Program-made: the position numbers and the translations under genes
Assembly (NCBI GenBank): GCA_006503475.1
Contig: RSEH01000333.1
Coordinates: forward strand, 1-43,996
Source of the DNA: Stentor roeselii
Lineage: Eukaryota > Ciliophora > Heterotrichea > Heterotrichida > Stentoridae
DNA: 43,996 bases
Direction: 5' to 3'
Shown here: positions 21,566-41,878 of the stretch, one piece after another
Numbering within the stretch: position 1 is the stretch's first letter
Layout of the letters: each line of letters starts with the position of its first letter
Notes under the pieces: model-generated
What the model saw: only the letters and a program-made list of their open reading frames with translations
Told to the model about the DNA's origin: nothing
Database searches by the model: none

Positions 21566-22966
21566 CTACAAACATACTATATTGTTCTTTAAGTGTACAA
21601 TCATTTTAAATTCATTCACCGAAACCAATCCATTAACAAAATCATTCCTTCCCATCTTAATCCCAAAAAACTCTTCAACATCCTTCAAAAAAACCTTTTC
21701 CTTTCCTTCACAAGAAATAATCCTAAAAACCTTTTCCAAATTCTCATCTTTTAAAACTTTCGAGCTTCTCGAAAGTGCATTGATAAATTCACTATACTCA
21801 ATAAATCCATTTCTATTCAAGTCAAACCTTTCAAAAAATCTTTTAGTAATTTTTTTCGCTTGTTTAATTCCAAACATTTTTTCCGAAACCTTATAAAATT
21901 CAAAAGCATCGATTTTTCCATTAGAATCCAAATCAATTAATTCAAAACAATTGTTTTCTTCATCCATTTCTTGATTCCAGTTCAACATCGAGTTGATAAA
22001 AAGTGAAACAGCATTTTGAAGGTCATTCAACTTCGGATTTTTCAAAACTTTTTCAATAATTTTCGTCTGAATGTTTTTTTTCTTTATTCCAGAACTAAGC
22101 CAAGGGTGTTTCAAGGCTTCAGCTGCTGAAATCCTTAGTTTCGGCTGAGGACAGAGCATTTTTTCTAGTAAGTCCTGAAGATCTTTTGAAAGACAAAGTT
22201 TTTCTAATCCAAGTTCAGCATTTTTTATCATTTTTCTGATTTTTTTCGGGTCTGACTCGTTGTAAGGCGAGTGGCCAGTGATCAAGACATATAAAACAAT
22301 TCCACAAGCCCAGATGTCTACTTTTTCATTATAGTCTCCAGTGAAGACCTCCGGGGCGAGGTATGTTAAAGTCCCGACGTATTTTCCTCTTTGTTGACTC
22401 CAGACTGCACTTCCGAAATCTCCAAGTTTGACTGAAAGATTCGGATTTAATTGAAGGAAAAGGTTTTCAAGTTTCACATCTCGATGAATCACTCCTTGTT
22501 GATGACAGTACCGAAGTGCTTTTAACACTGAAGACATTATAAGAGAAACTTGTTCCAATGGAAGTGGAGATGAAAAAGACCTTAAGTATGAAAAAAGACT
22601 TCCACCGTCAAGATATTCAAGAGTAATGAAAAATTTTTCATTTGATTCGAAATTCTCAAAACATTTTATTATGTTTGGATGGTCAAGAGTTTTAAGAATT
22701 TCTGTTTCTGGGAAAAATGAAAGGCTTTCAATTGATTTTATATTTGGGGACTTGGGAATCGCTTTTAAGGCCACGTATTGACCACTTAGGCTCTGTTGGG
22801 CGAGGTAGACTAAAGAATTTCCTCCTGAACCGATTTGAGAGAAGATTGTGTAATGCGGGTGAAGGTCCATCTGATGTGATTTCACGAACCAGGTCTTGGA
22901 TATCTGACTTGGTTTAGAAAGGTCATTTGAGTTAGAAAGTGACTTACGAGAAGATGTGCAACCCAT
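21566..22966 (-). CDS. Calcium-dependent protein kinase (CDPK) 2
   Basis: The protein has 466 aa, beginning MGCTSSRKS with a candidate myristoylated Gly2 and palmitoylated Cys3. The kinase domain covers about 39-290: GSGGNS loop, Lys68, HRDVKLEN (161), DFG (183-185), APE (204-206). EF1 (DLDSNGKIDAFE, 345-356) and EF2 (DLNRNGFIEYSE, 382-393) are canonical. EF3 (CEGKEKVFLKD) and EF4 have lost their calcium ligands. It is a tandem duplicate of CDPK 1 (same domain order, about 0.4 kb apart) but clearly diverged, so the duplication is not recent. Role: membrane-bound calcium-triggered Ser/Thr phosphorylation. Confidence 0.93.
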   Translation of the reverse strand: MGCTSSRKSLSNSNDLSKPSQISKTWFVKSHQMDLHPHYTIFSQIGSGGNSLVYLAQQSLSGQYVALKAIPKSPNIKSIESLSFFPETEILKTLDHPNIIKCFENFESNEKFFITLEYLDGGSLFSYLRSFSSPLPLEQVSLIMSSVLKALRYCHQQGVIHRDVKLENLFLQLNPNLSVKLGDFGSAVWSQQRGKYVGTLTYLAPEVFTGDYNEKVDIWACGIVLYVLITGHSPYNESDPKKIRKMIKNAELGLEKLCLSKDLQDLLEKMLCPQPKLRISAAEALKHPWLSSGIKKKNIQTKIIEKVLKNPKLNDLQNAVSLFINSMLNWNQEMDEENNCFELIDLDSNGKIDAFEFYKVSEKMFGIKQAKKITKRFFERFDLNRNGFIEYSEFINALSRSSKVLKDENLEKVFRIISCEGKEKVFLKDVEEFFGIKMGRNDFVNGLVSVNEFKMIVHLKNNIVCL

Positions 22967-23153: not shown

Positions 23154-26100
23154 TTATTTAGTGATCTTTAAGTGAGATAAGATTTGAGAGATTTTTTCAT
23201 CTAAGGTGCAGATTTTTTCTTGGATTGTTTCAATTTTAGTTTCGAGTAAAGAGACTTTATAGTTAGTTGTTTCTATTTGTTCCAAGGTATTTTTTTCTGG
23301 TGGAATTGTCTGTCTGGTGATGGAATCATCTGCGTTTGATGCTATTAAAGCTGTTCTCAAGTCGATACTATTTAGTAAATTATTTACTTCTTTATTATTT
23401 TTCTCTCCTGTTAAAGAAAAATTTCGCATGTCATTTGCCAATTCAGAAATATTTAGTTTTACCTTGTCTTTAGAGTTTTCAACAGTTTTTACTATCTTTT
23501 CTCCTATTTTATTATTCGAATGTAAAACGCGTTCAAATATATTTTCTAATCGTTTCAATATAAAAATAATTCTTCCATCCCAGTCAGTTCTGTTCATATC
23601 TTTTTTATCTGAAGAAGAAACAAGTAAATGAAGATATTTTCTTCTGCTTCTTTCAACTCTTCTACATGTAAAAACAGTTTGAACTTCTAAGATGATATCG
23701 ATTTTTTCCTTATAATCAATAACATTTTTTTCAATCATGAACTGATCATAACTATCTCCAAGTATTGAAATCAGCATATTCAACATCAGTATCTGATTGA
23801 AAATCATTGCAATAAACATTGAAGTAAAAATCAAATATTGATCTCCTGTTAATTCTATCTCTCCTGTAAAGTTAAGTTTCCAAGATAGACTCAATAAATC
23901 ACTGAGTAAAGATTCATCCGATGCTCCAATATGAAAGAGAGTAGCGAAGAAAAGTGTTGAGTAAAAAAAAATAATAATGAAATATTTTATGCTGTTGACT
24001 GAGCTCACAATTAAGTTTATATAATAACGAATTCCTTGAATCACTCGAAAGCATGTGAGTCCTCTGAAGAATAGTAAAAAAGCAAGTAAAAACTCTTGGT
24101 AATTATTTGAAAAGCCAGCGTATATTGATTCAATCCAGTAAAATGATGAGATAATAGACATAACATCAATTAGGTTAAGGTAATGCGTTAAATAAGATCT
24201 TGTATTAGAAAAAAGTTGAATGATTTCCCAGAACATCAGTAAAACTGTAGTAAAAACAAAAGGGATTAAAACCAAATTAGACTCATTTCCAAATATCTCA
24301 GCAACAAGGAATCCGAAAATATTTAAAAAAATAACAAGAGAGTAAATAACAGCCCAAGGGTAGATAACTTTCCAGTTATAATCAACAATCTGAGTAACGA
24401 CGATATTATCAAAAATCTTCGAATTATAACAATTCAAAAAAGTTTCAAGTACCAAGAAATTTTCATGACTATAAGGTTGTATCGGAATCTTATAAGCACT
24501 TTGCTTGATAACTGCAGCAATGTCAGTACTTTTCCCTTGAAACTCGAAATCATGGGGATCAGGAACAAAAGACTCACTTAAAACAAACTTAGGTAGTCTT
24601 TTACTTCCAGGAACACTGACGATTTTATAGTCTACAACGATTTTATCCAGATAAGCAGGAAGTAACTTGGAAGAATTTTTTACAATTAGAAGAAAATCAT
24701 TTCTTGTTGAGTTCAGATTGAAAATGACTAATTCTTTATTCTCATCTTTCAAACCTACTAAATACTTCAACATAATTTGAATACATTTCTGATTTTTTCT
24801 ACTAATCGAGTAAAAAAGAGGCGATTTTCCAAAAATATCACTTTTTATAACAATTTCACTATTTTTTATAAGAGTTTCTTTTAAAATCGCTTGTTTTCCA
24901 GTGAAAGAGGCGAGATGAAGAAGAGTGTATTTAAACTGTGATACCAGAATTTCTGAATGTTTTTTAGAAAATTTCGAATTTCCCTTTTTTCTATACTCAA
25001 GAGTTTCTTTCAATGTGAAGTAGTCTTGAAAGTAAGGGTCAGACATACTCCTTGGCGAATAACTCAAATCATTTGTATCAATGCACTTTGAAGAAATCGT
25101 TATTTTCAGTCCTTGTTTCTTTTGGTAGTCAATTATCGCTTGCAGTGAAGAATTCAACCTTAAAGGCTTTTGCAGTTGAAACCTCATCTCAACTGAATTT
25201 ATTTTCACTTTGAACTCAAGAACAGATGTTTCAAGGATTTTAAAGAGTTCTACTCGTTTACCTTTTAAAAATTCGTAAATTTTGAAACCTGTTTTTGTTT
25301 GAATCATGAAAAAATCAGCACGATTTGAAAAGACTGCTGATTCAACTGTGAAAAAATCGATGAAAGTCTCGAAAACTTTAAGATTTGTTGAAATTTCAAA
25401 GATTTTTATTGAGTGATTTCGGGAAAGGACTGAGAGATGCTTTAAGTCACTTGAAAGTTGAATGGAATAAAGGTATTTGTTATCGTTTAATATTGAAGAA
25501 ATCTCTAAGTTCATGTCAGTTCTGATGATTTTAATGATATCGTTTTCTAAAGCGTAAACAAGGAACTCGCTTTGATGACTGAAAGAAAAACAAATAATTG
25601 CCTCATCGTTATGAACTGTTCGAATAGGATTTTCTTGATGTAGGTTCCAGATAATGATGATATTTTTTTTATTTCCAGGACTTTTTGCAGCAAGTAAAGA
25701 CTTATCAGGGGAAAACAGAAAATCACAGCAGTTAAAAAAATCACTTTTAAAAAAAAATCTTTCATTTTTTACAACATCCAAGACTATCACATTTCTATTA
25801 TCAAAGCGAAGAGCGAGATATTTTCCATCACGAGAAAAAACAACAGATTCTTTAAAATTGCTTATTTGATCAATAGTTTGAATCACTTCATCATTTATAA
25901 TTCTTTTCACCCTAACCAAGTCATTATCATATTTTTCAACAATATGCATGTTATCCTGAGAGACATCAATAAAATTTTCATTAGAATTCAAAAGTTCTTC
26001 ATGATAATCATCACTTTCCTTCAGTTCCCAAATCAATACTTTTCCATCATCTGAACAACTCGCATAAGACCTTCCATCAGATGAAAAATTTCCACAAGTG

Positions 26101-28826
26101 ATTTTTTCTGAATGTGCTGAAAGTTGAAACTCGTCTTTCATTTGTTTAAAGTTAAAAATTTTGACCTTTCCATCTGCACATCCAATGCCGATGTAGTTTC
26201 CATCAGTTGAAAAAGAGACAGTTCCCACTCCATTAGTCATTGTTTGGTAATAGTAATGAGCTCTTTGTTCCCTTATCAGCCAAATTATGATTAAACCATC
26301 GTCAGCCCCGCTTATTAAGTACTTTCCTTTAGGGTCAAAAGAAATTGACTTGATAAATTTTGAATGTCCTGTAAAAGTTAAAATTTTTTCATTGAAGTCC
26401 CAGATTTTTACTGTGAAGTCGAATGAACCACTTGCCAAGTACTCGCTGCATGGACTGAACTTTAAACTGCTTACTAAGTCGTAGTGACCCATTAATATGG
26501 ACTTTTGAGTGGTTGGAAGAGAGTTTTCGGTGTTAAATACGGTTATTATGTGGTCGGTTGAACCTGTTGCTAGAAGGTTTAGGTTAGGAGAATAAGCTAG
26601 AGACCTAATACTTTCATTAAACTCCCTTTTTTCAATTTCAACAAGACCCTCTAAAGAAACCCTCCAAAATCTCACAAATTTATCTTCAGAAGCACTTGCC
26701 AATATTTCTCCATCATAAGAAAAAGCAAGTGCAGTAGTAGCAGCAAAATTTTTATTAACACTTCCAACAACTCTAAAAATTTTCCTACTCCACAAAAAAA
26801 TCTCTCCATTTTCATCAGCAACAGCAAGAAACGTTCCAGAAGGTGAAAAAACAACAACTCTTACAATAGTTTCACTTTGAAGTACAAATTCAGGTTGTTT
26901 TTGTGAAACATCATTAATTTTAACAGTGCTATCTGAAGAGCAGGTAATAAGTTTCTTTTGACATTCAGTAAAAGCAAGTGCCAAGACACTTTTCGAGTGT
27001 AAGTTGAGTGAAAATCGTTTGTTATCTTTATTTAAACTATGAACTTGAATAGAAGCATCTAAAGACCCGCTGATGATTTTTTGACAGTCCTTTGAAAAAA
27101 TAATGCAAGTTATGGAATTTGAATGAGAATTGAATTTAAAAAGCATTTTCTTTGAAGTAACATTCCAGACTATCACAAAATTATCTCTTGACCCACTGGC
27201 TACCCGAAGTCCATCATTTGAAAAGACCACAGCCTGTACAGAACTAGAATTTTCTGTAAAGGTATGTAAATGTGTTTCATTTTCAACATCCCAAAGTATC
27301 ACCTTCCTATCAAAATCTCCACTAACAGCTAATTTCGAATCATTTGAGAAGGCAACAGCATTAACAATGTTACTATGTATTCCTCCAAACATCAAATTAT
27401 GTTTTTCATTGATTAAATCCCTGACAATCACATCTTTATCTTGTGAACCGCTAATTAACTTTTGACCATCTGAGGAAAATTTAAGACATTTGACTGGTTT
27501 TGAATGTTCTGCGAAATATCTGGGATGTTGTTGGTCTAGTCTTTGATAGACTATTATTAATTTTTCCTCGATATAAGCGACGCTGTCTCCTGTTGGTGAG
27601 ATGTCTAAAGCGTTTTCACCACAAGTGTTTGTTTTGTATTCTGATATAAGATTGTCTTTTAATAAGTCCCAGACCCTTAATACCCCATCAGTGGAAATAC
27701 TTGCAAGGTGAGTTGATTTAGATGATATTGCTACTGAACGGAATTCAAAAGGATAGCTGAGGGTCTTTGATTCTTTTTTTTCATTTGAGCTTAACATTAA
27801 AAGACCTTTTTGCTCTGAGGATAATAATAGAAATTTACCGTCTTTTGTGAATTTTAAGTCGTTTGCTTTCACTGAAAATCTGAAGAATTCGGAGGGGTTG
27901 GAAAGTTTGGTTATTGTTTGGAGTAAGATTCGACCGTCGGTGTGACTGGTTCCGAGAGTTTCGCTGTTGGGGGAGAAATAGATTGAGGTTATTGGGCTCA
28001 TGTGGTAGGGAAGTGCTCGGAATACACGACCGATATTTGTATTCCAAAATGTTATCAAACCGTCTTTATTACTGTAAGCTAAGAGCTGCGAGTTTTCAGA
28101 AAATGCTAAACAGGAAACTTCCCTTTCAATATTCTCGAGATGAGTCACTTCTTTTGTGATCATGTTTTTTAAAATAACTCTCATGTCTTGGTAAGAACTC
28201 ACCAAAAAAAATCCATTCGGAGAGAAAAGTACAAAAATAACAGGCGAGCCATTACCATGAATCCCTATTTCAACCTCCATTCTCTTATGAATATGAAATC
28301 CTTTCAAAGATCCATCATCTAATCCACAAACCACATTGCTATTATGTAAAGAAACAGTGATGCAATTGATAGGATATTCATATTCATATCTAAAAACTTC
28401 CCTCATCAATTTCATATTCCACATCCTTAAAGTCTTATCCTTTGACCCTGTGATTAATAAGGCTCCATCAAGATTAAACCAAAGTGATGTGATTATCTCT
28501 GAATGGCCTGCCAAGATACACTCAACTCGTTTTTCTTTCAAGTTTAGGACTTTGATTGTTTTATGCGTACTAGAAACAATCGCTACTAAAGTATCATCAG
28601 GCGAAATCGCTACAGACTTTATGTTTTCTCCATGGTCTCCGATAATACTCTCCTGAATCGAACTCGATTGGACTTCTTCTATTGAATGAATCAAAAAATC
28701 ATCGAATTTATCTCTTTTTTGAGGATCTTCTGGGTTTTTTGATGATTCAGCCTCGTTGGTTTTAGGGTTTGGCCTGTTTTCTGTAGGGTTTCTGTTGATC
28801 AGATTTAGTCTGAGGGTACTATCCAT
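23154..28826 (-). CDS. Giant WD40 array-ankyrin-like-TRP-like ion channel fusion
   Basis: The protein has 1,890 aa in one frame. Residues about 60-1250 are about 25 WD40-type units (SPDDTLVA, GSKDKTLRMWNM, SGDFDRKVILWDV, GSFDFTVKIWDF), enough for several propellers. Ankyrin-like units follow at about 1301-1356 (TLLHLASFTGKQ, FGKSPLFYSI). Residues about 1485-1694 hold six hydrophobic helices with a pore-loop-like stretch (LSWKLNFTG, about 1647) and NMLISILGDSYD at the end of S6, a TRP/polycystin-like ion-transport signature. A charged coiled coil ends the protein (about 1840-1888). No signal peptide is present, so both ends are probably cytosolic. The inference is a cation channel with a huge cytoplasmic scaffold. 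Ion selectivity and gating cannot be read. Confidence 0.9.
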   Translation of the reverse strand: MDSTLRLNLINRNPTENRPNPKTNEAESSKNPEDPQKRDKFDDFLIHSIEEVQSSSIQESIIGDHGENIKSVAISPDDTLVAIVSSTHKTIKVLNLKEKRVECILAGHSEIITSLWFNLDGALLITGSKDKTLRMWNMKLMREVFRYEYEYPINCITVSLHNSNVVCGLDDGSLKGFHIHKRMEVEIGIHGNGSPVIFVLFSPNGFFLVSSYQDMRVILKNMITKEVTHLENIEREVSCLAFSENSQLLAYSNKDGLITFWNTNIGRVFRALPYHMSPITSIYFSPNSETLGTSHTDGRILLQTITKLSNPSEFFRFSVKANDLKFTKDGKFLLLSSEQKGLLMLSSNEKKESKTLSYPFEFRSVAISSKSTHLASISTDGVLRVWDLLKDNLISEYKTNTCGENALDISPTGDSVAYIEEKLIIVYQRLDQQHPRYFAEHSKPVKCLKFSSDGQKLISGSQDKDVIVRDLINEKHNLMFGGIHSNIVNAVAFSNDSKLAVSGDFDRKVILWDVENETHLHTFTENSSSVQAVVFSNDGLRVASGSRDNFVIVWNVTSKKMLFKFNSHSNSITCIIFSKDCQKIISGSLDASIQVHSLNKDNKRFSLNLHSKSVLALAFTECQKKLITCSSDSTVKINDVSQKQPEFVLQSETIVRVVVFSPSGTFLAVADENGEIFLWSRKIFRVVGSVNKNFAATTALAFSYDGEILASASEDKFVRFWRVSLEGLVEIEKREFNESIRSLAYSPNLNLLATGSTDHIITVFNTENSLPTTQKSILMGHYDLVSSLKFSPCSEYLASGSFDFTVKIWDFNEKILTFTGHSKFIKSISFDPKGKYLISGADDGLIIIWLIREQRAHYYYQTMTNGVGTVSFSTDGNYIGIGCADGKVKIFNFKQMKDEFQLSAHSEKITCGNFSSDGRSYASCSDDGKVLIWELKESDDYHEELLNSNENFIDVSQDNMHIVEKYDNDLVRVKRIINDEVIQTIDQISNFKESVVFSRDGKYLALRFDNRNVIVLDVVKNERFFFKSDFFNCCDFLFSPDKSLLAAKSPGNKKNIIIIWNLHQENPIRTVHNDEAIICFSFSHQSEFLVYALENDIIKIIRTDMNLEISSILNDNKYLYSIQLSSDLKHLSVLSRNHSIKIFEISTNLKVFETFIDFFTVESAVFSNRADFFMIQTKTGFKIYEFLKGKRVELFKILETSVLEFKVKINSVEMRFQLQKPLRLNSSLQAIIDYQKKQGLKITISSKCIDTNDLSYSPRSMSDPYFQDYFTLKETLEYRKKGNSKFSKKHSEILVSQFKYTLLHLASFTGKQAILKETLIKNSEIVIKSDIFGKSPLFYSISRKNQKCIQIMLKYLVGLKDENKELVIFNLNSTRNDFLLIVKNSSKLLPAYLDKIVVDYKIVSVPGSKRLPKFVLSESFVPDPHDFEFQGKSTDIAAVIKQSAYKIPIQPYSHENFLVLETFLNCYNSKIFDNIVVTQIVDYNWKVIYPWAVIYSLVIFLNIFGFLVAEIFGNESNLVLIPFVFTTVLLMFWEIIQLFSNTRSYLTHYLNLIDVMSIISSFYWIESIYAGFSNNYQEFLLAFLLFFRGLTCFRVIQGIRYYINLIVSSVNSIKYFIIIFFYSTLFFATLFHIGASDESLLSDLLSLSWKLNFTGEIELTGDQYLIFTSMFIAMIFNQILMLNMLISILGDSYDQFMIEKNVIDYKEKIDIILEVQTVFTCRRVERSRRKYLHLLVSSSDKKDMNRTDWDGRIIFILKRLENIFERVLHSNNKIGEKIVKTVENSKDKVKLNISELANDMRNFSLTGEKNNKEVNNLLNSIDLRTALIASNADDSITRQTIPPEKNTLEQIETTNYKVSLLETKIETIQEKICTLDEKISQILSHLKITK

Positions 28827-29502: not shown

Positions 29503-32500
29503 TTAAAGATCCTTTATTTGAATTGGTTCACTTTGATGTCTTGTTTTGAGATGATCCCTATTTTTCCATTTCTCAATAATTTTCCTAAAAATTCCAACAA
29601 TAAGCTGCAAAGAATTGACGACCATATTAAAACCAAGTGCAGCAAGAATAACTCTAGTCCCATATAAAGACTGATCTTCAATGGTTGTCTCAAGTCCGAA
29701 GACAAGCGGTACTAAAAAGACTAAATAAAAAACAAGAGTAAGAATTTCATTGATTAAGCCAAAAAAGTTGGAATAATTTGATTTATAAGGTGCAGCGAAA
29801 ATCAAGTAAAAGATAACCTTTTTAAAACTTACCATAAGAGAAAAAATTGAACTTGTTAATAACTGGATAACTAAAGCACTCATGCAGACGATTACCACTG
29901 AAATCATCAGTCTTCTGATAATAAAGATCATGTAATATAAACTTGCTGATGATTTAAACTCTTCTAACAATGACTGGAACTGAACTTTCAGTTTCACTTT
30001 TCTTTCCAAAGAGATTTCAGGACTTTGAAAAGATAATAAACAGTAAAAAGTGTATAAAATCGCTATAAATTGAACTGTCTATATTTTTCTTACAATAACA
30101 ACACAGATCACTACATGGTCTATATAATTCCACTTTGTTTCAAAACGCTGATACCTCAGCCCAATAAGCCCTACAAGTAAAACATCAAAGCAAGTCTGCA
30201 GAAGAAACCTTAAAAACCCATTAAACCTAAAAAAACTTTCAAATTTTCTGTAAAACCTTTCAAAAAACCTAATATTTTTCCTTTTAACCACTAAAAACAA
30301 GAAAAACATGAAAAACATTCCAAAAAGGCCAATTAAAAAAGTCCCGGCATTAAATACAAATAAGTTATTTTCAATTCCAACTCTGAGGTACTTTTTAGGC
30401 AACTTGTCTTTGGCAGGGCTGAAAAAAGTTCCTATAAAATTAGGAAGTTTTACTGAAGACCTGAAACCATTAATGAAATCAACAAAGCTCTGTTCTAGGT
30501 CGATATCAAAAAGAATAATATAAGAAAGCATTTCTATGAAATTGATAAAATTGAAAAAACTTGTCGGGTTCATCGATAAGATACTTGACCCTCCTACTGC
30601 TACTAAAGAGGAAGTAGTGAAAGTAGATGATAATGAAGTGAAAGTCTTTAGTTTTGATGAAAAAGTTTCAGGAAATAAACTACAATGTAAAGATTCTGTG
30701 ATTAGTTCACTGTTTTCATCTGAGGTTAAAGTAACGGTGAAAGAAATTATCACGGAATAGCTGGAGGTCTTTGGAAGTGAGGTAAAAATTATCAGGTAAG
30801 TATTTTTATCTGAAAATTTTAGTGAAAAAGTCGCTTGCTCGGAATTTATTGAAATGTTTAGTGAAGAGATGTTTAGTGGGGTTGAAAGAGACTCGTTAAA
30901 GATTAATTTTACCTCGTTTGACTGAGACACTGATACTGAAACTGTGAAATTTTTTCTGATACATTTTCCATGATCTGCATAACCTTTTTCACAAAAGCAT
31001 TTCAAACTTTTTAACTCACTGTTTTTTTTGCATGTCATGCAAATCTCTAGGTTTTGACAGGATGAACATAGACTAGGACAAGGTAAGCACTTTTTATTTG
31101 AAGTACTGTAAAAACTTCCTTCAGGGCATTCATTGCATATTGAAGACTGAAGTTCAAATCCAGGACTGCATTCTAAACATTGATTTAGATGGGTCTTGTT
31201 ACATGACCTGCAGTTGGAAGTCGTACAATACTGACAGGTTTCATTGTCTATACATCCAAAGCGACACCATTCAGGACAGGTCCAGCATGAACCAGTTTGG
31301 AAATATTCTGTTATGTTGCAATCTGGAAGACATTTATGAGTTCCATTCGGACACAGCCCACACCCGATACACTCTTTAGAACTAAAGCTGAAATCGAATT
31401 TTTCATTAAAAATCTCGAAATTATAAACAAATCCTTTAAAATCCTCATATCCTTCAACCCCACAGCCTAGTTTTAATCTACTTTCTTCAGAGTCTAAAAA
31501 AGGTAAATCATGAAAATCTTCTACAAAAGCAATTTTTTCATTTATCAATACTTTGCAAGTACTTCGAGAACTATACAAAATATTTATTAAAAAGTGACTC
31601 CATTTTTCAAACTGAATATTAAAAGCTCTTTCAAAAATTTGCTCCATTAAAATGACCTGAATTGATTCAGTTTTGATCAAAACACTAAAAGTTTCAGAAG
31701 ATTTTAAATAAGAAACTTGACTGGAGTTTGTAGGGTTCAACCATGTTGCTATGTAAAAAGTTCTTGAAACGAAAACTGTGCTGCCAGACTGTCTTGGATA
31801 TGAGAGACAAGAGAGTCTACCGTTGAAGTAAAGTCCACGTCCCAAGACAATCTGAAGTCCTTCTGTTGGGCCAAAGGGCTCTAAATGCGACTCCATGTCT
31901 TTCAGTGAGTTTGTTGTTGTATTTAACTCTAGTCGGAAAATTCGATGCTTTTTAAACTCGCAGGTCTTGTCTGAGGTTTTTAGGTAGCCTAAAGGACAAA
32001 ATTCATAGCACATATTATTTAAAATAAAGTTTGAGCATTGAGTGCATTGGTTGTGATCAGAACCTGAACATTTTTCACAATTTTTTGTGCAAGCCTCACA
32101 TGATTGCACCTCGATTTTATAGTAAAACTTTAGATCACATTCACATCCTCTAGAAACAATATTAAAACTAGAGTTTTCAACACATTTCGCACAAGTCTCA
32201 TCAATTTTTTCACAATCCTGACAAAGTATTTCACATAAAGAGCAATCCTCCCTTCTCTTACATCCATCACTACAAGAAGACAGGCACGCAGCACATTGAC
32301 CTCCATAAAAAAACCAATCAAAATCACAATCCACAAGGCAATTACTTAAAATACTATTTGAACAAACCTGCCAATTAACAACTAAATCTTTAGAAATCAA
32401 TCCAGAATAAATAAAGAATTGCCAAATAAATCCAACAAACCCTTCACCAAGAGTGATTTTTGATAGAAAATCCTTGAAAAATCCAACATTTTTCTCAAAA

Positions 32501-34947
32501 AACCCAAAACTCTCATCAACCCAAACAAAAGTATCTCTTGGAAAATTTCTTGAATTAAACCAAATCAAAATTCTTGTCCATTTTTGAAGATTCACTTCAA
32601 ACAAAGAGAAAGTTGAACTTCCTTTTGAAAGAGAAAGAAATGAATTAAAAATCAGGTCGTTTTTCATGAAAAATTGACCTTTTTTATTGACTCTCACCCA
32701 AAAAATAAGTGAAAAGTTAAAAGGTAGGAAAATTTCAGAAGTTTCAATGAAAGAAGTTGACTTGAAATAAAATCCTCTTCCAAATGTTGGAATCGGGTCA
32801 GTTTCATGGAAATCAGGGTAAAACATCGAATTCGCTCCTGTGTAGAACAAGTTTCCATAAATATCAGAAAAAGTGTTTGATAAAGAGTTGAAAACTATTT
32901 CTAAAACCATTTTTGGACCTGAAGTTTTACAGTCTTGATTTTCTTTTATATATGAAACTGGACAAATTTCAAAGCAGGTGTAATCATGAAGGACGTAAGG
33001 CTCGCGACAGGAAAAACAACTTGAAAAGTCGCCTTCGAAGCAGTTTTTACATCTAGGATGACAGCATTTTTTATTATCTTCTGAAAGACTGTAACCTGGC
33101 AGACAAGGGTTGATTTGATCTTCTTGACAAGAAGACAAGTACCCATCAGGACAAGAGGAGCATAAGATATCAAGACAACTGTTACAGGTTCCCCATGTCG
33201 AGCACCCATTTTCACATTCTTCATCACAGTTCAGGTTAATGTTCAAGAAATCATTTTTGTAAGACTCTGGGTTTGTACCTATTAATTTTCTTGGTGAGTC
33301 ACTGAAACAAGAACTCAGTTCAGAGTCGTCTGGATCAAAAGATATGAAAACTTTATACAAGAAAAAAATACTGGAAATTTCACCGATTTTCATGTTTTTA
33401 GTAGGGTAAAAGGCAAATCCAGTTGTAGAAAACATAAACTTTCCATTGTCAACACATTCAGAAATGACTGTCGCGGTATCAACATCTAACCTGACAGTCA
33501 CCTTTATAACCTTCCAAGTATTTAAAAACGAACACACTCCTCTAATACTAAAATTTTTTTCCCCTTCTCCATTTCTCAAACTAATTAAAACTGATCCACT
33601 TGTATTAATTTTAAGTCTTTCATTAGAAATAATCAAATTTTGAAGACCATTTTCAGATGATCGAAGCCAAAATCCAATCAGGTACTTAAAATTCAAATTC
33701 AATTCTGGAGCTGATAAAAATTCAGAACCATTGAAAAAAAGGCCTCTTTTGTAATAAGGAAACGGGTCATCATCATCTGGGCTCTGGTAAGGCGCGTAGG
33801 TTAAAGGATTCAACCCTGAATGGAAAAATTCTCCGTAATATTGAGTAAAAGGTTCAAATCCGAAGCATTTTATTGACAGGGTCGAACGAGTTTGAATGCA
33901 CATCTTGTCAGTTAGAGTAGCTCCTGCTTCACATGTAATACATTCGAACTCTGAAAGGTAAGTCAAACAATTTCTACCAGGCATGCAAAGTTTTGTATTC
34001 AGAAGGGAACAGGCCAAGCAATGTTCAGGCCCAAACCCAGAACATGATAAACAATATGAAGAATAACAAGACCTGGCAGGTGGAACGTTTTTAATACAGT
34101 TAATCCATGAGCCATCACAAACTTCGCATTGAGAGACCCCAGAATAAAACCCAAAGAGACAACTTGAAGGATTTTCTAGAGTTTCATAGTAAAAATCCTC
34201 ATGATTTACGATAAAAAACTCGTAAAAAAAACCTTTGAATGAAGAAGTTTGGGACCCGAGCTGATAAGAAAAGTCATTAGAATTCATTTTAACTTGAAAT
34301 GAATTAAAAGTACCAGAGGTGTCATTAAGCATCAAGGAAACAGAGTTAAAGTACTGTTTCGACCTGATAAACAAAAGTGACCAAGTCCCCCAAGGACTAC
34401 GAGGTGAATGCGAAAGATCTCTCACCCATTTACTTTCATCATCATTCTTAAAAACACTCATCCTCATCAAAAACTTCTCATTATCCGCTTCAAGACTCAT
34501 CCAATTAATCAAATTTTTCTGAATTTCTAAAATTATTCCTTCTTCGATTACTTTTATAAAAAGACTGAATGTGAAATGAGGAGCCATCACCCAACCTGTT
34601 GAAGAAGATAAAAAACTTTTTGAGTCAAAGTAAAAACCTCGGTCGTATGTTGGGACTGGAGTGGTTTTTGAAGAGTCTTCGAAGGGTAGGTTTGAAAGAC
34701 TTGAAAAACTTGAGATTGATGATGCGGAGTATTTCAGAAAGCTTTTGAATTCGATGTGGACTACTTCGAAGTTTTGGTCTGAAGGAGGAAAACATTCTGA
34801 GATTGAGTCGATGTAGGTGGATGGGCAGGTTAATAGGCATGAGAGATCTCTGTATTTCTTTTGGAAACAGTTACTGCATGATGAGTCGAGACATGTTGTA
34901 GAGAGTGTGATTTGAACTTGAAGGAAGAAGGAAAGGACTAGGGCCAT
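29503..34947 (-). CDS. Giant LamG/Cys-rich multi-TM surface protein A
   Basis: Minus-strand exons are 34947-30094 and 30078-29503, giving 1,809 aa. It starts with a signal peptide (MALVLSFFLQVQITLS). Four LamG-like beta modules (about 53-260, 353-553, 680-860, 1000-1187) each carry an RGxYF-type motif. They alternate with Cys-rich furin/EGF-like blocks (repeated CxxC, CSxCxSGYL). A beta-rich linker precedes about seven TM helices from about residue 1526 onward, and the intron lies inside the TM region. A large surface receptor or adhesion-type protein is inferred; ligand and signalling are unknown. It is the paralog of the gene that follows on the right: same architecture, same linker (NPTSFFNF against DPTSFFDF) and same TM order. 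Confidence 0.87.
30079..30093 (-). other. 15-nt spliceosomal intron
   Basis: GTAAGAAAAATATAG (minus strand). It joins CVVI to TVQFIAIL within a membrane helix and removes an in-frame TAG. Confidence 0.92.
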
Positions 34948-35638: not shown

Positions 35639-38600
35639 CTAAAAATCCACCACTTTTAATTCATTTCCATTTTGAGGTTCAGGATGAGTTTTAAACTTAT
35701 GATCATTTTTTTTTTCCTTTCTTTTCGCCATGATATCCCTAACCTTATAAACAACAGCTTTGATAGTATTCGAGATACTAATGACAATATTCAAAATCCA
35801 AGCTCCCAGTATAATTTTCATGCAAATATCAGTCAACTTCTCAGAACTACCAGAGACTCCTTCGATAAATGAAACAAGGATGACGGCATGATAAACGCCA
35901 ATTAAAATCTCATTGAAAAAATGATAAACATTATAAATCCAAGTCTTAAACCCTTGAACAGTGACGATATACAAAGGAATCTACTTACTCCATACCGAAA
36001 ACGAGAACATAATAGAAAAAGCAAGTTGAAAAGCCCCATCATCAATAAACTGATAAGAAATCTGTATCATCAACCTTCTCAAAATATAAATAAAGTAAAA
36101 CAGCCAGTCCTTCAACCCTTCATCTTTAAACTCTTCAAAGAAAGTTCCATATTTCTGAACAAAACCTTTAATTTCTTCCTCATCTGTCATTCTAGAGCGT
36201 TTTTTTATCAAATGTAAAAAAAGTAAAATCCCTGAAATTTCTACACCCTGATTGAAACTTACAACAAAAATACAGGAAATAACATAATCAACCCTTTGAG
36301 TCCAGTTTTCCTTTTTCGACATTCGCAAGCTAAGTCCCACCGCAGTTGAAAGTTCAAAAAAAGTCTGAAGCCAGAACCTTAAAAATATCTTATATCTGAA
36401 AATATTCATTAAAAACTGCAACTTTTCCTTTAAAAACCCGATTCTTGTAACAATCCAAACAATCAACCCCAAAGCAAAAAAAATCAAAAGTACCTGTAAA
36501 TGAACAGCAGTGTTAATCAAGAACAAATTCGAGGAATACCCGAATTTTCTGTACTTTTCATTCACTTCAACCCCTTGATCCACGTCAATAAACAAGGAGA
36601 AGAGTTTAGGGATTTGATTGTGAATTCGAAGACCCATCAAGAACTCTGAAAGGACTGGGTTCAACTCGAAGTTAAACAAACAAACTGAATAAAACATCTC
36701 TGCTGTGTTCATGAAGTCAAAAAATGAGGTAGGGTCGAAGTTCATGAAGCTCAGACCCACTGCAACTGAAACTCCTGCAGTTGCTCCAGTTTTTCCCATT
36801 TCTTTCGAGGTTTTCGCTTGTTTCAGAAGAGATAATTCTTCTTTTAAGGAATCGGTCAATACTGTTTCTTTTGAAAGTTTTCCGACTTCTAGAAGACTGT
36901 TTGATTTCGAAGTTATTTCTTCGAGGAAAAAAACTTCGACTATTGAATTTTTTGAAACTTTTTCAAGAGCGAAAATTAGTCGAAAGGTCTTCATGTCGAT
37001 TTTTTCGATTGAGAAGGAAACGATCAGGTTGTCGAGGTGAAGAGTTAGAAGGGAGGGCTTTAGATCGGAACTTAAGTTTTCGGAAAACCAAAGAGTTATC
37101 TCGTTTTTTTGGTTTATTGTCATTTGTACGCTGAATCGGTTTCGGAAACATTTTTCTAATGTTAGGGAATACCCCTGGTTGCAGTTGCATTGGCCATAGG
37201 AAGTGAGAGAACTGCTTTTTGAACATGTTAAGCAGGTAGATAGAGATGAACAGGTCTGACATAACACTGGACATGGAACACACATCAAGCTTTGACCATC
37301 ATAAAAAGTTGTAGAAGAACAAATTTCACATGTTTTGTTCTGCACTTCAAAGCCAGGAAGGCACTGATAGCAACTATTTGATTCATAAGAATTACAAAAT
37401 TCGCAGTCGTCATCAACACAAGAGAGACAAGTTGATGAATCTTTGCATGAGTTAGGACATTCATCAGGACAACTAACACATTTTCCAGACCTTTCTACAT
37501 AAACCTGTCCAACATCACACAAGTTGATGCAAGTTTTATCAGCGAAACAAACATCACAAGTAAGACAATTAACATCAGAAACAAGCCGATCAATACTCAA
37601 ATAATTCCCATAAACTTCAATATTATAAACAAATCCAAAAAAAGGTGAAGATCCATCAACATCATCTCCAATAAAAACAACTGAGCTATCAGTATCAATA
37701 AACGGAAAATCTGAAAGACTAACCAAAGGTCCTTGTTTATTATTAACCCAAATCATAATAGACGTGTTTAAAGAATGATTACAAGTAAAGTAAACATGAT
37801 TCCAGTACTCAATATTCAATTTCACTCCAGAACTATAACTAAAAGTAAAATTTTCTAGAAAAATCTCACCTTTCATCATCGAGTCCTCAACAAAAAGCTT
37901 CAAAGAATTAACCTGAAAATCCTGAGAATACTTCGAAAAAACCGTCGAGGACCTGTTCAGAGGTCGAAACCAGAAAGAAACTGAAAAATCAATATTCAAG
38001 ATTTTTGAATCATTTTTCTTAATCTCTAAAAAAGAGTTGCCTGGAAAGTAAACTCCTCTTTGATAAACTGCAAAAGGTAAAGTTGAAGTCAATCTTCTTC
38101 TTGTTTTTCCTTCAGCTTCAAGACCATTCACAACGTCGAAAAAAGTATCTCCAAGGCCTTGAAAGAGGAATTTTAAAGTAGGGTAATTAGGAGTTTCTAT
38201 TTCACAAACACCTGAAGAATTGATAAAACCTAATGGGCAGCTTTCAGAGCAAATAGTTTTTAGAAGAAGTGAAGAATTGCAGGAAGAACATTCGTATAAA
38301 GTACTACCGAAACATTTTAGACAACTTTTGTCACAATCTTGGCAGAGGGGCAGAAATGAATGAGTTGATTTGCAGGTTAAACATGATGTGCTTGAGTTGC
38401 AGGAATCGCATATGTTTAGACAAGGCATGCAAAGGTCTTGGGTTGTGTTGTAATATGTTTGTTTTTTACATTCACAGCCTTCGAGTGATTGACTGGCATT
38501 CGAGTCTTTACAAGCTAAACAAAGGTTTTTATCTTGGCAGCCGAGACAAGTCGGATGGCATTCCAAGCATGAAGAAGAGTTAAGGTAAAAGTTTTGGCTA

Positions 38601-41600
38601 CAAGAAGTGCAGAAAGTTTCATTTAAACAACTAGTACAGTTAATATTGCAAGCAGCACAAGAATTAACTAGGGTAAAATCTGATGATATAGGGTAAAATC
38701 CTGTCATGCAAATGCAACCAGATGTTAAATCTGGCTGAGAATTCAATGTTTTACATGATAAACATTTTAAAGCGTTGATGCATGTTTTGCAGTGACTGTG
38801 GCAAGGAAGGCAAGTGAAAGTTGTTGAACTTGTTGGGTTTTGGTAATACCCAGCGGAACATTGACAAACTCCTGATGATGAAATGAAGGAGTTGATATCG
38901 AAACAAGAGAGACAAGGATTGGAAGAGTCGCAAGATGAGCAGCCGATTCCACATTGGAAACATGATGTACTAGAAGTCAGAGGAGATACCCCACCATACC
39001 CCGTAGGACAAATGCATTGACCATTCGATAAAATCGCGTAGATGGCTTTACAAGAGTCACAGGATCCTAATGATCTGCATGTGGCACATTCAGATGAACA
39101 AGCGACGCATGTATAAATTCCATTTAAGCCATTATTCCGATAATAACCAGAGTTGCAAACACAACCTGAAGAAGGTGAAGGACTCGAGTTGCTGTCGATG
39201 CATGTCAAACAAATAGCGAAGTCATTACAAGTGAGACAGTCTGTATTACATAGACTGCAAGCATTTGTAGTTGATAATGATGAACTAGCAAAATAACCTT
39301 GAACACAAGTGCATCTACCATATGAGTCGATAAATGTATTTGCTGCTATACATTGAGTGCAACTTTGTGAGTCTGAGCATGATAAACATTCATTTAAACA
39401 GCCACTACAAATGGTTGATGTAAAACTCAAAGGACCAGTAGCAAAAGTAAGTGAAGGGCACTGACAGCCAGTATTTAGAGGAACAGCGGTAGTAACCAAG
39501 CATTTGTCACAAATTAAAGAAGAGCTGCATGTAAGACAATCAGATGAACAAGCTACACACAAGTAGTCCCCATTGGTGTCTACCGATCGATAATACCCTG
39601 AGTCACAAAAGCACCCTGATGAACTATCAGGACTAGAAAAACTTGCCTTGCAGGTCAAGCAAAGAGAGGCCTCGGAGCAAGTCTTGCAGTCAGGGTGACA
39701 AGAGGTGCAAGCCGAAGATAGAGACATTGAGGATGACTGGTAAAATCCTGCAAGACATTTACAGACTCCGCTATTGTCTGTTATTGAATTCAGTGCAGTG
39801 CATTGGGTGCATGATATAGTGTTGGTGCATGAAAGGCAGGAGGAATCACAAGGGCTGCAGGTCGTTGATAAGGAATTCATCGGACCTCCGGGGAAGAAAC
39901 CTTGAGGGCACTCACACTTCACCCCATTAAAACTAGCCCCTAAAACCTTGCACGTAGAACACGAAGTCCCAGAAGAGCACAATTTACAATCCTCCCTACA
40001 AGCCAAGCACGAATAATCATTTCCAGAAACACTCTTATAATACCCATCAATACAATCACATCCAGAACTCGGAGAAACAACAGAAAGTGTATTTTTACAA
40101 CTAAGACACAATCCAAGTTGATCACAAGTTTTACAATCCGAAGAGCAAGCTTCACAAGAATACATTTCAGATCCATCAATTCTAAAAAAGCCTTCATCAC
40201 AGTAACATCCTGAGTCACTTCTAGGAGTTGAATTCAATGAAAGACAAGTAATGCAGATGTCAGGGTCAGAGCATGTGGAACAATCGAGATGACACTGAGA
40301 ACAAGCGGTGGGCACGTTCATGACATCAGTTTGATAAAACCCTGGACTACAGACACAGATTGAGCCAGTGTCAGGCATCGAGTTACTCGCCAAGCACTTT
40401 ACACAAGACTCTCCGTCAAGGCAAGTAGAGCAAAAACTAAGACAAGTTAAGCAGATAGTAGAAGTTGTATCTAAAGGGCCTGAAGGGTAAAACCCGTCAC
40501 TACAGCCACAGCCGACTGTAAGAGGAACGGCGCCATTCACTATACAAGTTTCACAAGATGATGCATCGAGGCAAGTACTGCAATGTGAATGGCAGATCTG
40601 ACAAGAATTCACATCAGACATTTTAGGAATTAATGCGTAGTAACCATTCAAACAAGAACAACCTCCCAAGGAATTCACTTTTGAATTAGTAGAAATGCAA
40701 GTGATGCAAGAACTAGAAGTGCAAGTCAGACATTGACTGTCACAAGCCACGCAAGTTCCGCCTTGGCTTAAAATTCCACTTTCAAAAAAGCCTTCTTTAC
40801 AAGCACATCCATTATCTCCAGGTTGTGCATGAATATCTACACAAGTTAAACAAGTCACTCCATTTGCACAGGTCAGGCAGTCCTGACGACACTTAAGACA
40901 AGCAGGGCCACTAGTGTAATAATTAGACTGGGTGCAAAGACAAGTGCTTCCAACAAGCGAAGTGCCTGGTAAACAGTCACAGATTAACTGGGATGATGAA
41001 AGAACGCACATTGACGGAGAGCAACTGCAATCGAGACAAATGGTTCCAATGCACACTCCAGATGAACAGTACTGTGAACAAGCACCTGAGGAGGAAGAGT
41101 AAGGGTCTGTTTGATATGAAGTGCAACCTGTCATCGCCAAGACAGGGTCGACTATTGATGGATTGCATTCGTTGCAACCAGAGTAAAAACAAGCAGTTGA
41201 TGAGGACTGATGGATAAAGTTATCGAAAAGTGAAACTGTGTAAACGTGGTGATAGTACCATATAAATCCAACTGTGCCGAAGAATGAACCGGCCGAACCG
41301 ATGCTGCTTTGTTCTACTGAGGTCTCGATGTAGGGAGATGGGAGAGATAAAGTGGATAATGGAGAGTTGTTTGTAAAGATTTTTACTTGGTTTACGTCGA
41401 TTATTATTCCGAATAGAAGCCAGGACGCTGAGTGGCAATTACGAGGATTTATTGTAAATACGTTGGTCCAGGCACCTGCAGAGTTTGCACCTGATACTGA
41501 TACATAAAATTTCTTCGAATAGCCAAAGTGATCAGCATAGATATAACCTCCTGCATTACTCTTTCTAATAAAAATGATCCCATCTGAACTTGGAGTAACC

Positions 41601-41878
41601 AAATACCATATTGCAGCAGAAAAAGCTCCAGAAATAAGAGTTGTCTCTGATGAAATATCATTTGGGTAGACTCTTATCCCTGCTGAATGATGTGGGATGT
41701 AGGCGCCTCTGTCAGTAGGCACTATATCTAAGCTGTCAATGCTTGAACTCGACCCACTCACTGCAACTCTACTAGAAGAGTACAGCTTATCTCGAAAGAC
41801 CTGCCCGAAAGAATTCCCGAAATGATAAAAAACTTGACCTGAGGAGAGAATGACTAAAAACGCGACCCAAATTAACAT
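35639..41878 (-). CDS. Giant Cys-rich/LamG multi-TM surface protein B
   Basis: Minus-strand exons are 41878-35996 and 35980-35639, giving 2,074 aa. A signal peptide (MLIWVAFLVILSSG) precedes an N-terminal LamG-like module (to about residue 230). About 20 Cys-rich modules of ~48-50 aa follow (residues about 234-1227), each with CxxCxxxCxTC, GCxC and G(F/Y)(Y/F) positions. A second LamG-like module lies at about 1237-1427, then more Cys-rich units, a beta-rich linker, and about seven TM helices from about residue 1790. Expansion of the Cys-rich stalk distinguishes it from its tandem paralog (protein A), which has more LamG units. Surface receptor or cell-coat function is inferred. Confidence 0.88.
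35981..35995 (-). other. 15-nt spliceosomal intron
   Basis: GTATGGAGTAAGTAG (minus strand), with A at position 10. Splicing joins MFSFS to IPLYIVTV within a TM region. The intron carries an in-frame TAG. Confidence 0.92.
38640..40560 (-). repeat. Higher-order Cys-rich repeat, period ~450 bp (three modules A-B-C)
   Basis: Within protein B, three module types recur in fixed order. Type A has GYYRS and ACSSDC, type B has GP and ST.C..C, type C has a DSxGxCxC start and GFYQ. Matching A, B and C modules are spaced about 445-450 bp, with one extra A-like copy near 40040. See the matching finding. Confidence 0.8.

Follow-up and report, generated by a model that had tools for sequence, protein, structure and literature searches.

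A WD40–ankyrin–channel gene of Stentor roeselii and the channel family to which it belongs

Among the closest described systems, TRPV channels (TRPV1, TRPV3, TRPV5/6) combine ankyrin helices, strands before S1, the helices S1–S6 and a post-S6 helix, while TRPA1 and NOMPC (TRPN) carry a long cytosolic tower of repeats ahead of the channel; the Chlamydomonas protein ADF1 is also said to be a TRP channel. A third comparison is offered by the HNWD/NACHT-WD40 receptors of Podospora (HET-E, HET-D, HET-R), which have many near-identical WD40 blades. Here we analyse a gene of the ciliate Stentor roeselii in which a WD40 array precedes an ankyrin-like part and a channel. The window, that is, the whole stretch of DNA that was analysed, is 43,996 nucleotides (nt) long (GCA_006503475.1, contig RSEH01000333.1) and is one whole contig, C268, of a 44.4-Mb assembly of 522 contigs. 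We read the gene as encoding one subunit of a TRPV/TRPA1-like cation channel whose tower senses or holds a partner and gates the pore, with a probability of roughly 0.6. A literature search of titles and abstract openings returned no TRP channel with a WD40 tower, a domain pair that UniProt or InterPro may list; neither the word WD40 nor the word channel occurs in PMC9882060 (version 3), although version 1 was listed with one WD40.

An earlier reading of the letters of this DNA (hereafter the sequence-only reading) had placed an uninterrupted frame of 1,890 amino acids (aa) at 23154–28826 on the minus strand, and both the coordinates and the frame are right. As judged from its sequence, the predicted product is a genuine WD40–ankyrin–channel fusion; sequence and structure model together support its family, a TRPV-like channel fold, ankyrin-like helices, strands before S1 and a coil, in the following parts:

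23154..28826, minus strand: complete frame, WD40–ankyrin–channel–coil, 1,890 aa, ATG to stop
25236..28634, minus strand: WD40 array, aa 65 to about 1197, about 27 units (Pfam, unit profile, AlphaFold model)
24639..24965, minus strand: ankyrin-like helices, aa 1288–1396 (Ank_2 under its cut-off, family-profile matches, model helices)
24408..24638, minus strand: strands and pre-S1 helices, aa 1397–1473, at the place of the TRPV coupling layer (model strands, structure alignments)
23733..24404, minus strand: six-helix channel S1–S6, aa 1475–1698
23850..23890 (approximate), minus strand: pore loop with NFTGEIEL, the TRPV filter region in the profile alignment
23738..23792, minus strand: S6 signature ILMLNMLISILGDSYDQF
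23673..23729, minus strand: post-S6 helix at the place of the TRP helix (profile alignment, model), without the W-K-L-Q-R of TRPV1
23163..23285, minus strand: C-terminal coiled coil, aa 1848–1888 (model helix 609–649 of the C-terminal fragment)

The fusion is typical of a family and not peculiar to one contig, since it was seen in one open frame at 36 of the 41 distinct loci that we examined, on various contigs. WD40 lies in frame ahead of the channel at 25 of the 29 loci L010–L038 (all four misses have broken frames, two with WD40 past the break), at all eight of the loci L039–L045 and L048, and at three of four more distant loci. Pfam WD40 was matched in each of the nine full genes examined; L046 and L047 are full-length copies of L010 and L013. 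With the C-terminal part of the window protein as the query, 68 places in the genome were found, including its own, at E-values (E) of 2.9e-36 or better, and two paralog channel queries (308 and 305 aa) returned 128 and 131 rows, giving at least 140 loci on 113 contigs. These counts are lower bounds because the search scored only the best candidates. Frames of 1,000 aa or more are open at 126 of the at least 140 loci and add up to about 556 kb, which is about 1.25% of the assembly. By similarity, then, the window gene belongs to a set of 140 or more channel loci; the sequence-only reading had missed this, and also the TRPV/TRPA1-like character of the channel.

The breadth of the family bears on whether the gene could be a misassembly, a read-through of two genes or a decaying gene. 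Frames are broken or short at five of the 41 related loci and stops occur inside some genome matches, but the recurrence of the fusion on different contigs makes such an origin highly improbable, as does nonsynonymous divergence (dN) below synonymous divergence (dS) between close paralogs, in both parts, where dS is computable. For the channel part this was the case in all 19 pairs with computable dS, among 21 paralog pairs more than 60% identical there. The earlier expectation that an assembly artefact was unlikely is thereby upheld, with the same domain order in one frame in many paralogs. Between paralogs, the tower changes faster than the channel; for L011 and L018, dN is 0.059 and dS 0.348 in the channel, and the corresponding values for the final 500 aa of the array are 0.103 and 0.327. 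Some pairs have a higher dS in the array as well, partly because the blades are out of register. In a tree of 34 channel domains, the window gene has a long branch, with L010 and the clade holding L011–L025 as its neighbours and low support at the nodes adjoining it (0.08 and 0.86). Channel-alignment scans of prokaryote (89 pattern matches) and viral (127) contigs, which are uninformative on other ciliates, confirmed no relatives outside this genome.

On the evidence of profiles and of the predicted model, the product of the window gene is a TRPV/TRPA1-like channel. The Ion_trans profile search that the sequence-only reading had proposed as a check succeeded for the family, with matches at E≤0.01 in 22 of 34 members (best 2.6e-11), but the window member itself stayed under the cut-off of 25 bits (17.4–20.6 bits, E 0.0026–0.00028), so that alone it does not pass Pfam. 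The family profile, the model and the fold matches agree on the six-helix Ion_trans arrangement of the TRP superfamily, with the pore between S5 and S6. The S6 end had been called TRP/polycystin-like and is nearer to TRPV/TRPA1 than to polycystin, with PKD_channel at E≤0.01 in four of the 34 members (best 7.3e-6) and the window member not among them. PDB profile and fold matches of the channel part were led by TRPV and TRPA1, which swap top places between profile, Foldseek and structure-alignment searches. TRPV channels are the best PDB profile and structure-alignment matches of the family channel part, at 11–17% identity in the structure alignments shown; TRPA1 comes first in the Foldseek list, and its channel part is matched by a longer family profile.

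Ahead of the channel, Ank_2 reached E 9.1e-5 and 23.4 bits on the C-terminal part of the window protein, against a cut-off of 27.3. The ankyrin-like units of the sequence-only reading are therefore under the Pfam cut-off for the single sequence, but they are supported by family-profile matches to ankyrins, NOMPC and TRPA1 and by helices in the predicted model. On this combined evidence, an N-terminal ankyrin part like that of the TRPV subfamily is present, with fewer than the six ankyrin repeats of animal TRPV. Strands were predicted at residues 158–167, 174–178 and 196–204 of the C-terminal model fragment, before S1, and also at 491–498, and these may form a layer like that of TRPV, which lies between the ankyrin part and S1 and is closed by a strand after the TRP helix; the structure alignments pass through the pre-S1 strands and reach TRPV1 residue 750. 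Unlike TRPV1, which has the filter G-M-G-D, the window protein has T-G-E, and it lacks the W-K-L-Q-R of the TRP box, where the family sequence i-d-y-k-E-k is aligned. An acidic residue lies near the filter glycine in 29 of the 34 channel rows, which is weak evidence given how highly charged these loops are. Also unlike TRPV channels, the window protein has about four WD40 propellers in front and a coil at its C-terminus. Hydrophobic residues fill all eight a/d places in the best 28-residue stretch of this coil (shuffled mean 4.9), and the coil is not general, as two of the 34 rows (L017 and L039) do no better than their own shuffled means.

From the predicted structure, the window array is probably a stack of about four WD40 propellers. 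Pfam WD40 matched the protein at E 5.1e-113, and a unit profile built in this analysis found 24 units at an independent E-value (iE) below 0.01 and 25 at iE<5, mostly spaced 40–45 aa apart, in agreement with the roughly 25 units proposed from the letters; a degenerate slot and a further unit recognised by eye bring the number to about 27. In an AlphaFold model of aa 41–1240 (predicted local distance difference test, pLDDT, 74.1; predicted template modelling score, pTM, 0.45), three stretches of regular strands can be read as propellers, at about aa 69–340, 362–640 and 655–935, the first of them confident only to about aa 270 (about local residue 230), and the fourth stretch of the array was modelled poorly, at low confidence. 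Low-confidence breaks fall around local residues 267–317, 603–611 and 898–961. Mean blade identity is 0.22 over 32 positions. A blade number in multiples of seven was considered, L041 having exactly 14 and L046 21 clear units, and was rejected, with 31 units in L054 and L055 and about 27 in the window array.

The tower of TRPA1 and NOMPC is built of ankyrin repeats, whereas that of the window protein is WD40. By analogy with NOMPC, which the ankyrin spring is held to gate in this way, the tower might tie the channel to microtubules or to the ciliary or cortical skeleton, so that force gates the pore. NOMPC is the second-best PDB match of the longer family profile, via its ankyrin part, Stentor is a large contractile cell, and both axonemal doublet proteins (9e78_0L, 7ung_e, 8g2z_0U) and the actin-interacting protein 1nr0 are among the structures that the array matches in fold. 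However, the axonemal match is generic, since the best match is the repetitive propeller 2ymu, followed by ribosome-biogenesis propellers, and the first axonemal chain appears only at rank 23; moreover, 140 loci and blade variation at few surface positions are not needed by a tether alone. We regard a mechanical tether as rather unlikely, and the link to cytoskeleton, calcium or cilia is a suggestion of the sequence-only reading on which an axonemal match of this rank says little. WD40 arrays are also commonly scaffolds, and the array could sort channels to one membrane (e.g. of the cilia or oral apparatus) during assembly or trafficking, with no gating role; the low likeness of the window blades, at only 22% and with no recognition-type homogenisation, would suit this. 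Against it, the model contains the ankyrin/strand layer beside the array, the part that contacts the gate in TRPV structures, and we consider a pure scaffold improbable.

The reading that we prefer is that of a tower which senses or holds a partner and gates the pore. The channel is probably tetrameric, with about four WD40 propellers on the cytosolic N-terminus, where the tower would bind an intracellular ligand or protein partner. When bound or pulled, the tower may shift the ankyrin/strand layer against the post-S6 helix, and the shifted layer would open the pore to cations, probably including Ca2+. Across the family, change is greater in the propellers than in the channel, and the paralogs therefore most likely report different targets via a common output, while the old, unhomogenised array of the window gene suggests that it has one fixed target. 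The family provides a natural series in which a single type of channel bears many different towers, and the giant cell that carries it lends itself to recording.

Three full paralogs, L053 (1,782 aa), L054 (2,083 aa) and L055 (2,104 aa), resemble the HNWD receptors in a way that the window gene does not. They contain 20–23 blades of 41 aa with a mean identity of 73–79% (82–85% in DNA), where the blades analysed are 41-aa units whose likeness to the consensus is 60% or more (23 of 25, 22 of 31 and 20 of 31 units, in that order of paralogs, which is kept below). In the other measured members, the window included, blades are 14–41% alike, and homogenisation is therefore found in only part of the family; the high blade identity of HNWD arrays is absent from the window array, which is too diverged for the comparison of positions that follows. 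In L053–L055, variation is concentrated at blade positions 2, 3, 4, 6, 22, 24 and 31, counted from the histidine, the same positions as in HNWD receptors according to excerpts of two sources (PMC12222747, PMC1805685). The former names 10, 11, 12, 14, 30, 32 and 39 as the diversified positions of fungal HNWD arrays, and the latter places codons 7, 9, 25 and 27 under strong positive selection at the top of the propeller. The register between the two numberings rests on conserved residues between position pairs, with no fungal sequence in the alignment. The set of seven positions was fixed after the blades had been seen and before the statistics were made, and was later found in print (PMC12222747, in excerpt).

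Mean entropy at the seven positions is 1.95, 2.00 and 1.64, compared with 0.48, 0.48 and 0.34 elsewhere (permutation p 5e-5, 5e-5 and 1e-4). The ratio of nonsynonymous to synonymous differences (pN/pS) at these positions is 1.99 (bootstrap 1.68–2.58), 1.18 (0.96–1.52) and 1.02 (0.87–1.25), against 0.29, 0.28 and 0.21 outside them, and the four core positions taken by themselves give 1.45, 1.15 and 0.69. The combination of four residues is distinct in 23 of 23, 21 of 22 and 17 of 20 blades. Similar homogenised arrays, with high variation at the same positions, occur in four frames without a channel (L056–L059, on contigs C53, C441, C92 and C119), where pN/pS is 1.18–1.40 at the seven positions and 0.39–0.68 elsewhere and the interval excludes 1 in two of the four (L056, L057). 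At the C-terminal end of L059 lies a protein-kinase-like domain (Pkinase 4e-11), and a genome search with this C-terminal part gave 99 rows, of which the weak ones are probably ordinary kinases. Since homogenised arrays stand before the channel and, in L059, before a kinase-like domain, one array type would feed at least two outputs.

These arrays could, tentatively, be read as a ciliate recognition repertoire of HNWD-type WD40 arrays, concertedly homogenised, diversified on one propeller face and wired to channels (at least 140 loci) and a kinase, which would be NLR-like with ion current rather than cell death as its output, and in which the window gene would be an old member with a fixed array. 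If true, this would connect direct electrical signalling with the NLR-type arrays of fungi. As applied to these sequences, the seven-position test does not cleanly prove selection: positions 12, 37 and 41, outside the seven, are also variable in L053–L055, the bootstrap interval includes 1 for L054 and L055, whose four-position ratios are 1.15 and 0.69, and the seven positions are also more variable in the window and most other old arrays. With blades so little alike, the window gene is not what the recognition reading is based on. In contrast to HNWD receptors, the Stentor output is a channel, the array is N-terminal, and functional HNWD alleles usually have 11 blades (excerpt of PMC12222747) rather than the 20–23 homogenised blades of L053–L055. 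No NACHT domain was seen either: none was among the Pfam matches of the C-terminal 651 aa of the window protein at E up to 10, and for the whole protein the best 25 of 46 Pfam families were all propeller models.

Comparison of the paralogs indicates that arrays change length by about a propeller, as seven divergent blades adjoining the channel are kept in L054 and L055 but missing from L053. With 81% likeness in the channel and 47% in the final 500 aa of the array, L025 (full gene L053) and L011 (L055) suggested an array swap, which was rejected; beyond the missing channel-side blades, the rest of L053 resembles the distal blades of L055, and we read the two together as a loss of about one propeller. 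The L016–L024 and L013–L017 pairs have similar array breaks.

All three stop codons are found at the ends of family members, with TGA in a single member (L029), and their alignment positions are comparable; the standard code therefore appears to be used. Stentor coeruleus has the standard code and introns of 15–16 nt (PMC9505925, in excerpt). The only intron looked at here is a 15-nt intron-like GTAAG...TAG with an in-frame stop at 30079–30093 on the minus strand, separating the frames 30079–34947 and 29503–30009, which are probably one gene; Pfam gave no match on the longer frame. Four channel relatives with broken frames (L012, L026, L034 and L035) may be pseudogenes or intron-bearing genes. 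Elsewhere in the window, a protein kinase with EF hands after it (calcium-dependent kinase type) lies at 21566–22966 on the minus strand, 187 bases downstream of the channel gene and on the same strand, and a 1,965-aa frame at 35981–41878, also on the minus strand, has Laminin_G_3 and a furin-like cysteine-rich match, the latter under its cut-off. Elsewhere in the genome, frames of 2,618–2,715 aa have a partial Ion_trans match (C488, C130, C80:59337, C85:56990), and about 16 frames of 1,416–1,859 aa (e.g. on C55, C97, C131 and C502) each have several strong matches to Ion_trans, an arrangement like that of four-domain calcium or sodium channels.
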